A DNA stretch of 64,000 nt from Parapedobacter defluvii. GTDB lineage: Bacteria > Bacteroidota > Bacteroidia > Sphingobacteriales > Sphingobacteriaceae. The notes below the pieces were generated by a model. It saw only the letters and a program-made list of their open reading frames with translations. It made no database searches and had not been told where the DNA came from. The DNA is taken from assembly GCF_014642075.1 (NCBI RefSeq), contig NZ_BMIK01000008.1:124001-188000 (forward strand). The letters are read 5' to 3'. Each line of letters begins with the position of its first letter. Within the stretch, counting starts at the first letter, position 1. The position numbers were made by a program, and so were the translations under genes. This document shows, piece after piece, positions 5,447 through 57,176 of this stretch.

Positions 5447-8400
5447 TTACACTTTTTCAATTAAAACATTCATCTCCTTTTCAGCGATCTCTATTGTGTC
5501 TCCCATAGCGAGGCTATCCTCAAATATCAAAGAGTCTGCCAATATCTCGGTGCGAATATAAGATAAATTACCCTGAGCAGCGGTAGCGATGTCGGGAATG
5601 TTGCTTAGACAGACCCGGATTCGGTCGGTTACCTCAAGTCCGTGCTCTTTGCGGAGATTTTGGATTCGGTTTACCAGCTCGCGCGAAATGCCCTCATTCT
5701 TAAGTTCGGGGGTGATGTGGATGTCCAGCGCCACGGTGAGGTTGCCCAGGTTGGCTACCTGCCAGCCGGCAACGTCCTCGGCAATAATTTCCACGTCATT
5801 TAGCTGTATGATGTATTCCGTAGGAAGCGAAGCGGAATCATCACCCCCTGGATTGCGTATTGTGATCTGACCGTTGCGCTCCAGCAGGGCAATCTCATCG
5901 GCGGTAAACGCCTGGATGACTCCGGCGACTTCCTTCATGTCCTTGCCTACTTTTGGCCCCAGGGTTTTGAAATTGGGCTTGATTTTCTTTTTGATGATGC
6001 CCGATGTATCGGTAATAAACTCAATTTCTTTGATGTTGGTTTCAGAAAGGATCAGATCTTTGACCGTTTCCACTTTGCGCTGAAAATCGTCGTCAAGTAC
6101 GGGCAGCAGGACTTTATTCAGCGGTTGCCGTACATTGATGCCGGTTTTCTTGCGTAGCGATAACGTCAGTGACGAAATATCCTGAGCCAGGGCCATGCGA
6201 TCTTCCAGATCTTTATCGACCAAATCCGGGTGATATGCGGGGAAATCAGCTAAATGAACCGATTCTGCAGATTCTTTGCCGGTTACACCGTTCAGGTCCA
6301 AGTACAGTTGGTCGCTGAAAAACGGTGCGATGGGCGACATCAGCTTGGCGATGGTATCTAAGCAGGTATAAAGCGTTTGATAGGCCGAGATTTTATCGGA
6401 TGTATAATCGCCTTTCCAAAACCGTCTGCGGCACAGCCGCACATACCAGTTACTCAGATGTTCATCCACAAATGTTTGAATAGCCCGGGCTGCTTTGGTA
6501 GGTTCAAAGTCGGCATAGTAACCGTCCACTTCTTGGGTCAAACTATTGAGCAGGGAGATAATCCAGCGGTCTATCTCCGGCCGGCTCGCAATGGGTAAAT
6601 CGGGCTCGCTGTAAGCAAACTTATCAATGTTGGCGTACAATGCAAAGAATGCATAGGTATTGTACAACGTACCGAAGAATTTGCGGCGAACCTCATCCAA
6701 CCCCTCTTCATTGAATTTAAGGTTATCCCAGGGGGCGGCATTGCTGATCATATACCAACGCGTGGCATCGGCACTGTATTGCTCAATGGTAGCAAAGGGA
6801 TCGACTGCATTGCCCAGCCTTTTTGACATTTTGTTGCCGTTTTTATCCAGCACCAAGCCATTGGAGACCACATTTTTGAAAGCAACGGAATGCCGGAGCA
6901 TGGTGGAGATAGCGTGCAGGGTGAAAAACCAACCCCGGGTCTGATCGACCCCTTCGGCGATGAAATCCGCCGGATAGGCGCCCTCAAATGCCGCATTGAA
7001 TGGCGTGTCACTGCCCGCAGCAAGCTTCTGCTGGTCCAACCCCCATTGCGCGAAAGGCATGGCTCCACTGTCGAACCATACGTCGATGAGGTCGGGCTCG
7101 CGGTAGAGTTTTTGTCCGGCATCCGATACCAGGACGACATCGTCTACATACGGACGGTGCAGGTCAAGTTCCGCTGTATCGAATTTGCTCAGATACGCTT
7201 GCAGTTTAGCTTTCTCAGCCTCATCGAGCACATCCGAAGACAGACTGCTTTCAATCCGTGTTTTCAGCTCGGCGATCGATCCGATGCAAATCTCTTCGTT
7301 TTCATCGGCACTGCGCCAAATAGGCAGCGGCGTGCCCCAATAGCGGGAACGTGAGAGGTTCCAGTCTACCAGGTTTTCCAGCCAGTTGCCAAAACGGCCG
7401 GTACCGGTCGCTTCCGGTTTCCAGTTGATGGTTTTATTGAGCGCCACCAATTCATCTTTTACCGCCGTGGTACGGATAAACCAGCTGTCCAGTGGATAAT
7501 AAAGGATGGGCTTGTCCGTACGCCAGCAATGGGGGTAGCTGTGCTCGTATTTTTTGACCTCAAAGGCTTTATTTTCCTCTTTCAGCTTGATGGCAATCAG
7601 CACATCGGTGGGTTTAAACCCTGCTGCCGACCGCTCTTCGTCGCTGTAATATTCTTCTTTAACAAACCGACCGCCAAATTCACCGATTTCCTTCACGAAT
7701 CGGCCCCGTTTGTCAACGATGGGGACATCCTTCCCGTTTTCGTCTTTCACGAATACACCCGGCACATCGTTTTCCTTGCTGACACGGAAGTCATCCGCAC
7801 CGAACGTTGCAGAAGAGTGCACAATACCCGTACCGTCCTCCGTAGTAACGAAGTCGCCCGCAATGACACGGAAGGCCTTTTGCTCCAGTTCTTCGTTGGT
7901 AACATAGGGCAGCAACTGATGGTAACGGAGATTGACTAATTCGGCACCCGAAAATTCTCCCCGGATTTCCCAAGGAATGATCTTGTCTCCCTGTTTGTAA
8001 TCTTTCAGCGGAATGGCCTGGCCTTCTGATTTAAAATATCTGCTGACCAATTCCTTAGCCAGTATCACACTTACGGATTCAAATGTATATTGATTAAAGG
8101 TGCGGATTTTGACATAACGGATGTCCTTTCCGACCACCAACGCACTATTCGCGGGCAGTGTCCAGGGCGTGGTCGTCCAGGCAAGGATTGCCGTATCCTC
8201 GTTTTCGTCCTCAAAAAGGGCCGCCATGGCAGGGTGTACCTGGTCACGTTTGAGGCGGAACTCGGCAACGATGGTGGTATCCTTCAGGGGCTTGTACGTG
8301 CCCGGCTGGTTGAGCTCATGGGAACTGAGACCCGTACCGGCGGCCGGCGAATAAGGCTGTATGGTATATCCTTTGTAAAGCAGCCCTTTCTTGTAGAGTT

Positions 8401-8890
8401 CTTTCAAGATCCACCAAAGGGTTTCGATGTATTCGTTTTCGTAGGTGATGTATGGGTTTTCCAGGTCTACCCAATACCCCATTTTTTCAGTGAGGTCATT
8501 CCACACATCGGTGTATTTCATGACCTCCCGGCGGCATGCTGCATTGTAGTCGGCTACCGAAATCGTCTTACCAATGTCTTCTTTAGTGATACCCAGGGTT
8601 TTTTCGACAGCAAGTTCAATCGGCAGCCCATGGGTGTCCCATCCACCTTTGCGTTTTACCTGATAGCCTTTTAAGGTTTTATAGCGGCAGAAAATATCCT
8701 TAATGGTGCGTGCCATTACATGATGGATCCCCGGCATGCCATTGGCTGAAGGGGGGCCTTCATAAAAAGTATAAGGCCTTTCTGCCGGACGCTGGGAAAT
8801 GCTTTTTTCAAAGATTTTCTCTGCTTGCCAGCGGGCCAATACCTCTTTGCCGATTTCGGATAAATGAAGCTGCTTATATTCCTTGTACAT
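5447..8890 (-). CDS. ileS: Isoleucyl-tRNA synthetase, type-2-like with GxHH motif
   Basis: A 1147-residue class I aminoacyl-tRNA synthetase that charges tRNA-Ile and edits valine. The HxGH signature is replaced by GIHH in PPSANGMPGIHHVMAR (residues 54-57), and the second signature is NKMSKRLGNAVDP. The editing domain and the C-terminal region are full length. The start is ATG 8890 (MYKEYKQLHLSEIGKEVLAR), matching family N-termini; 72 upstream in-frame codons to 9106 are not protein-like. A TATCTTTG box lies at 8919-8926 on the minus strand. No T-box leader is seen. The gene heads the ileS - TraR/DksA-like - lspA - pgi series. Confidence 0.96.
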   Translation of the reverse strand: MYKEYKQLHLSEIGKEVLARWQAEKIFEKSISQRPAERPYTFYEGPPSANGMPGIHHVMARTIKDIFCRYKTLKGYQVKRKGGWDTHGLPIELAVEKTLGITKEDIGKTISVADYNAACRREVMKYTDVWNDLTEKMGYWVDLENPYITYENEYIETLWWILKELYKKGLLYKGYTIQPYSPAAGTGLSSHELNQPGTYKPLKDTTIVAEFRLKRDQVHPAMAALFEDENEDTAILAWTTTPWTLPANSALVVGKDIRYVKIRTFNQYTFESVSVILAKELVSRYFKSEGQAIPLKDYKQGDKIIPWEIRGEFSGAELVNLRYHQLLPYVTNEELEQKAFRVIAGDFVTTEDGTGIVHSSATFGADDFRVSKENDVPGVFVKDENGKDVPIVDKRGRFVKEIGEFGGRFVKEEYYSDEERSAAGFKPTDVLIAIKLKEENKAFEVKKYEHSYPHCWRTDKPILYYPLDSWFIRTTAVKDELVALNKTINWKPEATGTGRFGNWLENLVDWNLSRSRYWGTPLPIWRSADENEEICIGSIAELKTRIESSLSSDVLDEAEKAKLQAYLSKFDTAELDLHRPYVDDVVLVSDAGQKLYREPDLIDVWFDSGAMPFAQWGLDQQKLAAGSDTPFNAAFEGAYPADFIAEGVDQTRGWFFTLHAISTMLRHSVAFKNVVSNGLVLDKNGNKMSKRLGNAVDPFATIEQYSADATRWYMISNAAPWDNLKFNEEGLDEVRRKFFGTLYNTYAFFALYANIDKFAYSEPDLPIASRPEIDRWIISLLNSLTQEVDGYYADFEPTKAARAIQTFVDEHLSNWYVRLCRRRFWKGDYTSDKISAYQTLYTCLDTIAKLMSPIAPFFSDQLYLDLNGVTGKESAESVHLADFPAYHPDLVDKDLEDRMALAQDISSLTLSLRKKTGINVRQPLNKVLLPVLDDDFQRKVETVKDLILSETNIKEIEFITDTSGIIKKKIKPNFKTLGPKVGKDMKEVAGVIQAFTADEIALLERNGQITIRNPGGDDSASLPTEYIIQLNDVEIIAEDVAGWQVANLGNLTVALDIHITPELKNEGISRELVNRIQNLRKEHGLEVTDRIRVCLSNIPDIATAAQGNLSYIRTEILADSLIFEDSLAMGDTIEIAEKEMNVLIEKV

Positions 8891-8918
8891 CAATTGTTTG
8901 TGTTCAAAAATGAGGATG

Positions 8919-8926
8919 CAAAGATA
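8919..8926 (-). promoter_or_regulatory. -7 box TATCTTTG of ileS
   Basis: An exact match to the Bacteroidota -7 consensus TAnnTTTG, 28 bases upstream of the ileS ATG. I do not see a clear TTG at the -33 position, so this is a partial promoter match. Confidence 0.45.
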
Positions 8927-9098
8927 GTGAATTAGTACGAAAGGAAAAAAGGAGATGTGATTCGGGCGGTTGCTCCTCAACTGGAATCGGTTCGCGCTGC
9001 TCCCAATTGCTATGTTTCGTCTGCAAGCCGCCCGAATTGTTGAGGATATCTTTACAAAAGAGAAGACTAATGTTGGTTTAAGACAACTGTAGTTCGTC

Positions 9099-9285
9099 CT
9101 TACCAATTACATACCTGTTTGATACCTTTTGTTTACCGTTTTGGTAAGGCCGAGGTAAGGAATTGGTAAAGAAATGGTAAAGCGGAGGTAAGGGATTGGT
9201 AAGCGAGAAGTAAGGAAAGCGTAAGGAAGAACTATGGGAAAGGTATAGAAAGGGTAAAACTTTGGTACGTGAATGGTATAGAAGC
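9099..9285. repeat. 11-nt periodic tandem array with orientation switch
   Basis: Thirteen consecutive 11-nt units start at 9143, 9154, 9165 and so on to 9275 without a single phase slip. Most begin GGTA (consensus GGTAAGGAANN); the exceptions are AGTA at 9209, CGTA at 9220 and ACTA at 9231. Four units to the left (from 9099, 9110, 9121 and 9132) keep the TA step in the same 11-nt phase. They carry TACC, the reverse complement of GGTA, except for the variant letters around it. The junction forms the hairpin TTACC-GTTTT-GGTAA. The array fills most of the 480-bp gap between the iscA-type gene and ileS; the rest of that gap (8891-9098, 9286-9371) holds only the ileS promoter region and nothing else I recognise. 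Confidence 0.85.
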
Positions 9286-9371
9286 AGAAGCATCTTGAAA
9301 AAACGAGCGTACTGCCTTTAATGAATTAAGGCAGAAGCTAACGTGGAAATAACTTCTTTAGTGGATAAGAC

Positions 9372-9725
9372 TTACGCGGAAAACGACGACCCGCACCCGC
9401 AGGTGCTGCTCGCGTTCGGATTATTGAATGTAAACCCGCGGGCATCAAGGCCATTTTTAAAATCGATTTCCATGCCTGCAAGGTATAGACCATGGGCCTT
9501 GTTCATAAACACACGTATTCCTTCAATATCGTATTCGGAGTCTCCTTCTTTCTTCTGGTCGAAGCCCAACACATAGTTCATACCGGCACATCCGCCTCCT
9601 TCGACACCTACCCGCAGTCCAAAATCATCCGATATTTCCTGTTGCTCTTTTAGTTTTTTGAGTTCGCTGACGGCGCCGGGTGTCAACGTCAGCGGAGCTG
9701 AGGGTGAAAGCGTTGCTGTACTCAT
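9372..9725 (-). CDS. HesB/IscA family iron-sulfur cluster assembly protein
   Basis: A 117-residue A-type Fe-S carrier. The three conserved cysteines are present: one in EGGGCAGMNYVLGF and two in the C-terminal STCGCGSSF. The family holds an Fe-S cluster or iron and passes it to target proteins. ATG 9725 (MSTATLSPSAPLTLTPGAVS) is chosen over an ATG seven codons upstream because it matches family N-termini. No other isc or suf gene is adjacent. A TATTTTTG box (9752-9759, minus strand) lies upstream and could be its promoter. Confidence 0.92.
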   Translation of the reverse strand: MSTATLSPSAPLTLTPGAVSELKKLKEQQEISDDFGLRVGVEGGGCAGMNYVLGFDQKKEGDSEYDIEGIRVFMNKAHGLYLAGMEIDFKNGLDARGFTFNNPNASSTCGCGSSFSA

Positions 9726-56144: not shown

Positions 56145-56207
56145 TCTCGTACTTCGTATCTCGTACTTCGTACCTTATACCTCGTACCTTATACCTCGTA
56201 CTTCCTA
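56145..56207. repeat. Heptanucleotide tandem array between hemL and hemB
   Basis: Nine consecutive 7-nt units: TCTCGTA, CTTCGTA, TCTCGTA, CTTCGTA, CCTTATA, CCTCGTA, CCTTATA, CCTCGTA, CTTCCTA. The array ends at the hemB stop codon (56205-56207). Confidence 0.9.
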
Positions 56208-57176
56208 CAACCATCCCTTTTCCAATACTTCTTTGGCGTGGTAGGTAAGAATCGCCGTAGCACCAGCCCGCCGTATTCCCAGCAGGACTTCCATCGTGGC
56301 GCGCTGCTCATCCAACCAGCCATTACGGGCCGATGCTTTGATCATGGCGTATTCCCCACTTACGTTATAGGCTGCGATAGGCAGGTCAACTTGATCGTGC
56401 AGGAGATTGATGACATCCAGATACGGCAATGCGGGTTTCACCATCAGGAAATCCGCTCCTTCCTGTGTGTCCAGTGCTGCTTCAACCAATGCCTCGCGTT
56501 GGTTTGCCGGATTCATCTGGTATGTCTTTTTGTCGCCGTGTTTCGGAGCCGAATTGAGTGCATCGCGGAATGGGCCATAGAATGCACTTGCGTATTTCGC
56601 TGTATAGGACATGAGTGATACATGGGAGAACCCCGCTTGGTCCAGCTCCCCACGTATATAGCCGATCCGTCCGTCCATCATGTCGGAAGGTGCAATGATG
56701 TCCGCGCCGGCCTGGGCGTGAGCTACCGCCATTTTGCCTAAGATTTCGAGTGTTTCGTCATTGAGGATTTCGCCGTTTTCAACAATGCCATCGTGGCCGT
56801 CGCTGCTATATGGGTCCATTGCGACGTCGGTAACTACACACGCCTCGGGGAAATTTTTTTTCACTTCGGCAATCGTACGAAGGTACAAGCTGTTTTCCCG
56901 CGTTGCTTCGGTAGCGTATTTATCTTTTAGGGCTTCTTCAATGTTGGGGAACAGGTCAAAAGCACGGAGCCCCAGCTTCATGCATGTTTCCACCTCACGG
57001 AGCAAGTTGTCAAGTGAGTAGCGGAAAATACCCGGCATTGAACTCACTTCCGACTTTATGTGATTACCTTCAATGACAAACAGGGGGAAAATCAGGTTGG
57101 CAGCGGTCAGGTGTGTCTCCTGTACCATATCACGTACTACCGCAGATTTGCGGTTCCTTCTGGGTCTTCTTAGCAT
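56205..57176 (-). CDS. hemB: Porphobilinogen synthase (delta-aminolevulinate dehydratase)
   Basis: A 323-residue enzyme that condenses two 5-aminolevulinate molecules to porphobilinogen. The Schiff-base lysines are in GADFLMVKPALPYLDV and SYTAKYASAFYGPFRDAL. In the metal site the segment reads CVVTDVAMDPYSSDGHDGI: the three zinc cysteines of the zinc-dependent enzymes are replaced, so this is the magnesium-dependent type. It lies between hemCD and hemL. Confidence 0.97.
   Translation of the reverse strand: MLRRPRRNRKSAVVRDMVQETHLTAANLIFPLFVIEGNHIKSEVSSMPGIFRYSLDNLLREVETCMKLGLRAFDLFPNIEEALKDKYATEATRENSLYLRTIAEVKKNFPEACVVTDVAMDPYSSDGHDGIVENGEILNDETLEILGKMAVAHAQAGADIIAPSDMMDGRIGYIRGELDQAGFSHVSLMSYTAKYASAFYGPFRDALNSAPKHGDKKTYQMNPANQREALVEAALDTQEGADFLMVKPALPYLDVINLLHDQVDLPIAAYNVSGEYAMIKASARNGWLDEQRATMEVLLGIRRAGATAILTYHAKEVLEKGWL

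Follow-up and report, generated by a model that had tools for sequence, protein, structure and literature searches.

What keeps the spacing of a short repeat fixed at 11 nt when the sequence of its units drifts, and what could read such a repeat? The question is raised by an array between an iscA-type gene and ileS in Parapedobacter defluvii. It is found in the window analysed here, a 64,000-nt stretch of the genome labelled G000 (G and L numbers are used below as genome and locus labels). The preliminary description of this array listed 17 units at 9099–9285, with the TA at a constant position and no slip, four TACC units to the left and thirteen mostly GGTA units to the right. The listed 11-mers confirm both points, and the phase holds across the switch in orientation as well. 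Ten of the 13 units at 9143–9285 start with GGTA and the remaining three with AGTA, CGTA and ACTA. When TA alone is followed, the run reaches three units to the left of 9099 (unit 9066, first TA at 9068); these three are without TACC. When the 64-kb window was shuffled 100 times with dinucleotides kept, the longest TA run averaged 3.4 units and never exceeded 5, and TACC/GGTA runs never exceeded 3; the real sequence has runs of 20 and 10, respectively. The array was also said to fill the iscA-ileS gap, which is too strong, as it occupies less than half of the 481 nt (8891–9371) and is situated ~175–210 nt upstream of the ileS start. Coordinates are given in Table 1; TAnnTTTG is the consensus of the Bacteroidota promoter box.

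Table 1. The array in the iscA-ileS gap, its parts and its neighbours (positions in the window)
Feature	Position	Strand	Basis
Whole TA run, 20 units, 11-nt step	9066..9285	.	unit list and shuffles
Left arm, 4 units, TACC on + strand (= GGTA on -)	9099..9142	-	unit list
Switch point, inverted repeat TTACC-GTTTT-GGTAA	9133..9147	.	sequence
Right arm, main block, 6 GGTA units	9143..9208	+	unit list
Tail block, 3 in-phase units AGTA, CGTA, ACTA	9209..9241	+	unit list
End block, 4 GGTA units	9242..9285	+	unit list
TATCTTTG, resembles promoter box TAnnTTTG, between array and ileS	8919..8926	-	sequence
ileS, neighbour gene	5447..8890	-	
iscA-type gene, neighbour	9372..9725	-	

Known repeat types include CRISPR arrays, with repeats of ~20–50 nt and unique spacers, and REP/BIME, which consist of a hairpin repeat unit and a RAYT transposase gene. 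A CRISPR array is ruled out here by the period of 11 and the 4-base core. An ordinary tandem repeat, whose units are near-identical and all placed head to tail in a single sense, is ruled out by the two senses with kept phase and by a mean linker identity of ~0.5 or less between arrays. Tandem Repeats Finder yields only fragments of the window array, as is expected because the units drift.

The array is not alone in its genome. The pattern (GGTAN7)3GGTA has matches at four places in G000 and none in the reversed control. Relaxing the search to five GTA with one mismatch gives 60 matches, 59 of them in the same four places, and again none in the reversed control; the sixtieth, C1:573612, looks like chance. 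The other three arrays, L031, L032 and L033, show their parts in the same order as the window array: 4–5 mostly TACC/TACT units, the switch, 10–16 GGTA units, three AGTA/ACTA/ATTA units and 3–4 GGTA units. Their neighbours, read from translations, are unrelated, namely an NmrA-like and a secreted-type protein, a hydrolase and sufD, and ddl and a PASTA protein.

Copies were expected in related genomes and are found there. The looser GGTA pattern is present in 20/151 genomes of the family and 7/25 genera, with one reversed-control match. A sample of 395 genomes gives the strict pattern in six, 2/11 in the family and 4/384 outside it, with one match in each of the latter four and none in the reversed control. 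Thus the GGTA class is mainly a family feature, as the strict pattern is rare outside. Six of the 9 genomes of the Parapedobacter genus carry GGTA arrays, and the GGTA places per genome range from none to six. Among 40 regions fetched, both arms and the switch are present in all 20 from Parapedobacter; the 20 from elsewhere include many shorter arrays and several (e.g. L091, L100–L102) that are weak or chance. An in-phase tail block of two to four AGTA/ACTA-type units is found in 9/24 Parapedobacter arrays, including all four of G000. The intergenic location given in the preliminary description is supported: L103 is the one array within a long open frame among the 58 regions scored, and mechanical open frames overlap one end of L065, L067, L069, L083 and L123, while L082, L092 and L097 are overlapped by 1–6 bases. 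Scoring of another 60 loci places ten at 16–37 and the rest at ≤5, where 300 shuffles give ≤6.

The fixed phase with drifting unit sequence, claimed from the window array, is also supported by counts. In 24 Parapedobacter arrays, 293 TACC/GGTA cores are in phase vs 106 in the ten other phases combined (counted from −300 to +400 nt, with the 35-base search seed left out), and spacings within Parapedobacter arrays are multiples of 11 in 355/365 cases. In Pedobacter and genus g15 the 11-nt spacing dominates (197), and spacings of 13, 12 and 10 occur (18, 14 and 14), in a count that includes flanking sequence. Thus the strict 11-nt spacing is a Parapedobacter trait. Many of at least 119 stretches, and of 38 virus stretches, were set aside by eye from the printed units, without a formal rule, as near-identical 11-nt tandem repeats, which are present in unrelated bacteria as well.

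Near-identical 11-nt GGTAC repeats at L104, L140, L175, L244 and other loci, in unrelated bacteria and virus contigs, are probably a separate phenomenon. An IMG/VR virus contig (L254) shows seven GGTA-n7 units of drifting sequence at 8040–8116, with no HTH gene recognised beside them. Bacteroidales/Bacteroidota contigs (L110, L123, L141, L144, L160, L181, L192, L209) display TCTACC followed by GGTAGAGAAA-type units with an 11-nt spacing, possibly a distant form of the GGTA arrays.

Certain places are conserved. The iscA-ileS gap contains a GGTA array in 5/9 genomes of the Parapedobacter genus (G000, G028, G068, G078 and G093) and a CGAA array in G057; in the remaining three of the nine compared (G003, G045 and G087) there is none. 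The ribD/prmC gap (3 genomes) and the vicinity of glmS (2 genomes) are also recurrent sites.

The G057 array belongs to a second class, which has the design of the GGTA arrays with a different core (TTCG/CGAA). The pattern CGAAN7 four times is found in 39/151 family genomes and 9/25 genera, with reversed-control matches in 7/151. G000 has at least 5 CGAA places among the 26 listed of its 27 matches. G057 has 175 matches, and the switch of 11 of the 13 arrays read in it is marked by a dyad, GCAAN4TTGC, which occurs 11 times, ten of them at switches, in 61,212 bases of 12 G057 loci. A swap of core like that in the iscA-ileS gap is found upstream of rpsA: the array there is of the GGTA class in G028 (L066) and of the CGAA class in G057 (L440), with 95.5% identity over 647 aa between the proteins. 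The switch steps of the CGAA class (33 loci) measure 10, 11, 21, 22 or 32 nt in 33/38 cases and 20, 23, 26, 30 and 30 nt in the remaining five. These steps are near whole turns of the helix and not always multiples of 11, which favours geometry on DNA over copying of units.

CGAA arrays with shared flanks adjoin SusC/TonB-type receptor genes at L329, L330 and L331 of G000 and at L337 of G093. Some of these arrays fall within mechanical open frames, and the region looks like one duplicated regulatory region.

Candidate readers are found beside some of the arrays. The order HTH_17 gene, array, DUF6266 gene (PF19781) recurs in Parapedobacter, Pedobacter and g15, with an extra gene between array and DUF6266 in G028. 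When DUF6266 genes were collected by motif from 70 loci, 14 of the 26 displayed an 11-nt array ≤1 kb upstream, with scores of 5.8–8.0 bits vs a shuffle maximum of 3.86 and with TACC, CGAA/TTCG or CGGA-like cores; L291 (A-rich) and L294 are left out of this count. Five more have upstream scores of 4.3–5.0, above the shuffle maximum, and are not counted as arrays. The C-terminal part of the DUF6266 model resembles fn3, which yields no function, and no paper on DUF6266 was found in the open-access literature searched. DUF6266 as a universal partner is ruled out, as G000 has 13 DUF6266 matches and none is seen beside its four GGTA arrays.

The type of HTH goes with the core. The recognition-helix residue after T/S-Y/L is K or R in 9/9 HTHs beside TACC arrays and Y or F in 7/7 beside CGAA arrays, and G063 and G093 contain both types, each adjoining its own core. 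For 13/15 HTHs the nearest relative in another genus has the same core class, although these cases are not independent. Among the 9 genus genomes, a CGAA-type HTH is present in all five with at least 13 CGAA matches, strong in four and moderate in G057; none was found in G028 and G068 (1 and 4 matches), and G078 and G087 (0 and 1 matches) show weak relatives. G078, with no CGAA match, has a TYYR-type HTH. The GGTA-type HTH is strong in only 4/6 genus genomes with GGTA arrays. The two exceptions are G000 and G045, in which a profile search gives only the CGAA-type HTH and generic HTHs. G087 has a strong GGTA-type HTH, yet no GGTA match; the GGTA-type HTHs of L406 and L393 have no array behind them, and in G057 no array is found beside its HTH gene. 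Pfam assigns the array-linked HTH to HTH_17 near the curated cut-off (2/3 above), and NCBIfam and PHROG scans show it as BldC-like or excisionase-like with weak scores. The best profile match is BldC (6ama, E 1.9e-5). BldC is also at rank 1 in Foldseek, with E = 0.076 and 0/126 matches below 0.001.

The reading that we prefer, to which we give an even chance, is that the arrays are docking rows on double-stranded DNA, coated by BldC-like HTH_17 filaments. The cores, GG-TA or, in the sister class, CG-AA, would recur once per 11-bp unit and face almost the same side of the helix. BldC/excisionase-type winged-helix proteins (HTH_17) would bind head to tail, one per unit, and two filaments of opposite polarity would grow outward from the switch point. 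The filament may then act on adjacent promoters, here that of ileS, or, where an HTH gene adjoins the array, on the DUF6266 gene. The two-way phased build, the recurrent sites, the change of core at two of them, the gene order around the HTH loci and the tie between HTH type and core are observed; we infer the binding, the growth and polarity of the filament, any effect on transcription and the reader of the GGTA arrays in G000. A protein array along one helix face had been proposed in the preliminary description and is supported as the best reading. The phase kept outside the search seed and across the switch, the switch steps near whole turns, the core swap and the switch dyad count for it, as do the recurrent HTH_17–array–DUF6266 order, the agreement of HTH type with core, the CGAA-type HTH in the genomes rich in CGAA matches and BldC as the best profile and Foldseek match. 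The HTH misses (G000, G045, G087, L406, L393, G078 and G057), the 9-bp repeats of BldC and the weak Foldseek E-value count against it.

The protein principle, a BldC-type filament on direct repeats, is already known. As described in PMC5859096, BldC of Streptomyces binds 9-bp direct repeats head to tail, one winged-helix protein each, in variable repeat number, and the extended filament that results bends the DNA and makes it shorter. The arrays resemble BldC sites in showing direct repeats in variable number, and the array-linked HTH is closest to BldC by profile. However, BldC sites consist of two or four 9-bp repeats in one sense, whereas the arrays reach ~30 in-phase 11-bp units in two senses with a switch, carry several unlike cores and are found in dispersed copies. 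Lambda Xis and RdfS are likewise HTH_17-type proteins that oligomerise along DNA, RdfS as superhelical filaments (PMC11963761). These act at mobile-element attachment sites, but the arrays adjoin housekeeping genes; no integrase was recognised next to the array loci read. The preliminary description knew of no described family with these properties, and no description of phased two-way arrays that are scattered over a chromosome and can exchange their cores was found in the open-access literature searched.

A broader form of the filament reading is more doubtful and is offered tentatively. In Sphingobacteriaceae the arrays may form a chromosome-wide class of sites for two-way nucleoprotein filaments. 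Their geometry would be constant, each helical turn bearing one core and both arms leading away from a dyad, and the core could be exchanged in line with the recognition helix of winged-helix proteins whose family is diverging. A site could change its core in place, and a single genome could use several codes in parallel. If the filament reading is true, it would provide natural pairs of protein and core from which the DNA choice of BldC/Xis-type proteins, and the way in which sequence encodes filament length and polarity, could be learned. It would also represent a chromosomal regulatory or architectural system of a kind that repeat finders tend to miss because sequence drifts while geometry stays.

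Another DNA-binding protein, e.g. a nucleoid protein, may read the phased array instead, the HTH loci being further landing places. We consider this unlikely, although G000 and G045, with GGTA arrays and no GGTA-type HTH found, are in its favour; within single genomes the HTH type tracks the core.

The chances are smaller, and rather poor, that the arrays are a selfish or mutational repeat, grown by slippage and spread by conversion with neither reader nor use. Simple slippage had been named as the pattern that would speak against a selected array, and it does act: L032 contains near-identical 22-nt blocks in alternation. Units are also more alike between places within one genome (0.777, 43 pairs) than at the same place across genomes (0.713, 26 pairs), different places across genomes giving 0.720 (207 pairs); the within-genome excess is reached by 0/5000 permutations of genome labels and holds without two possible duplicates. 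The empty iscA-ileS sites of G003, G045 and G087 point the same way. Slippage thus makes copies, but leaves unexplained why the arrays run two ways and why the core is swapped, as it is at two sites (iscA-ileS and upstream of rpsA). The phase preserved over the orientation switch, the switch dyad of G057 and the link between HTH and core also argue against a repeat with no reader. The arrays resemble cyanobacterial STRR repeats and ordinary minisatellites as short-period intergenic tandem repeats. The arrays differ from these in keeping phase and core while the units drift, in the orientation switch and in their conserved places.

An element acting as RNA is improbable, whether a leader that folds or a Rho-dependent terminator in which pyrimidine-C pairs are evenly spaced. 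Results for the foldable RNA suggested in the preliminary description are mixed. The window array folds better than shuffles, with z = −3.0 for one strand and −3.4 for the other, and means over 24 arrays are −1.2 and −2.0 (25 shuffles each). L032 and L033, however, show z about zero or positive, no excess over shuffles, there is no Rfam match up to E = 1 for 8880–9400, and inverted arms by themselves give some folding. RNA folding is a weak, inconstant feature of the arrays. In rut sites pyrimidine-C pairs are evenly spaced and C exceeds G in the transcript. On the TACC strand C outweighs G (0.27 vs 0.17), and in the window both iscA and ileS have the TACC-rich strand as their sense strand, but the TTCG strand of six G057 arrays shows no C excess (C 0.29, G 0.30) and at least 8/24 arrays are between divergent genes by mechanical reading frames.

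A chromosomal centromere or anchor, like the iteron centromeres of plasmids that are bound by ParR, is very improbable. The parC site of plasmid R1 consists of 11-bp direct repeats in two sets, as the arrays do, and Foldseek places the pSK1 Par-centromere complex 8csh at rank 18 (E = 0.95). The R1 repeats, however, are near-identical, adjoin a motor gene and are on a plasmid, whereas the arrays drift, have inverted arms and are chromosomal, several per genome. The GGTA arrays also vary in number and place within the genus, no ParM/ParA-type motor gene was recognised in the translations read beside the four of G000, and a plasmid search with the window array and gap gave no match.

Intrinsically bent DNA with no protein reader deserves almost no credence: one flexible step, TA or CG, is present per 11 bp, but the bending proposed in the preliminary description is not supported, as 24 arrays show no bend excess over 30 shuffles each (mean z = −0.01; roll/twist vector sum with one set of dinucleotide values).

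Arrays of other cores and periods are found as well. At L423 (G003) and L415 (G087) a third HTH type (TYDR), with D at the helix position, precedes arrays that by eye have a ~21-nt period, two helical turns. Further cores, as CGGA/GCGGA arrays, are present upstream of DUF6266 at L307 and L373, and TTCGTACC/GGTACGAA units are found behind a TFYR-type HTH gene at L310. Between array and start codon of DUF6266 genes (e.g. L299, L333, L375, L310, L092) there is, by eye, a short row of ~10-nt units such as TGCCAATTAC, and in the same stretches a TAnnTTTG-like box, often with the palindrome TACCGGTA. The window itself contains a second periodic array at 56146–56208, intergenic, with a 7-nt period, a TAC/GTA core and TCGTACCTCATACCTCGTACT-like units.
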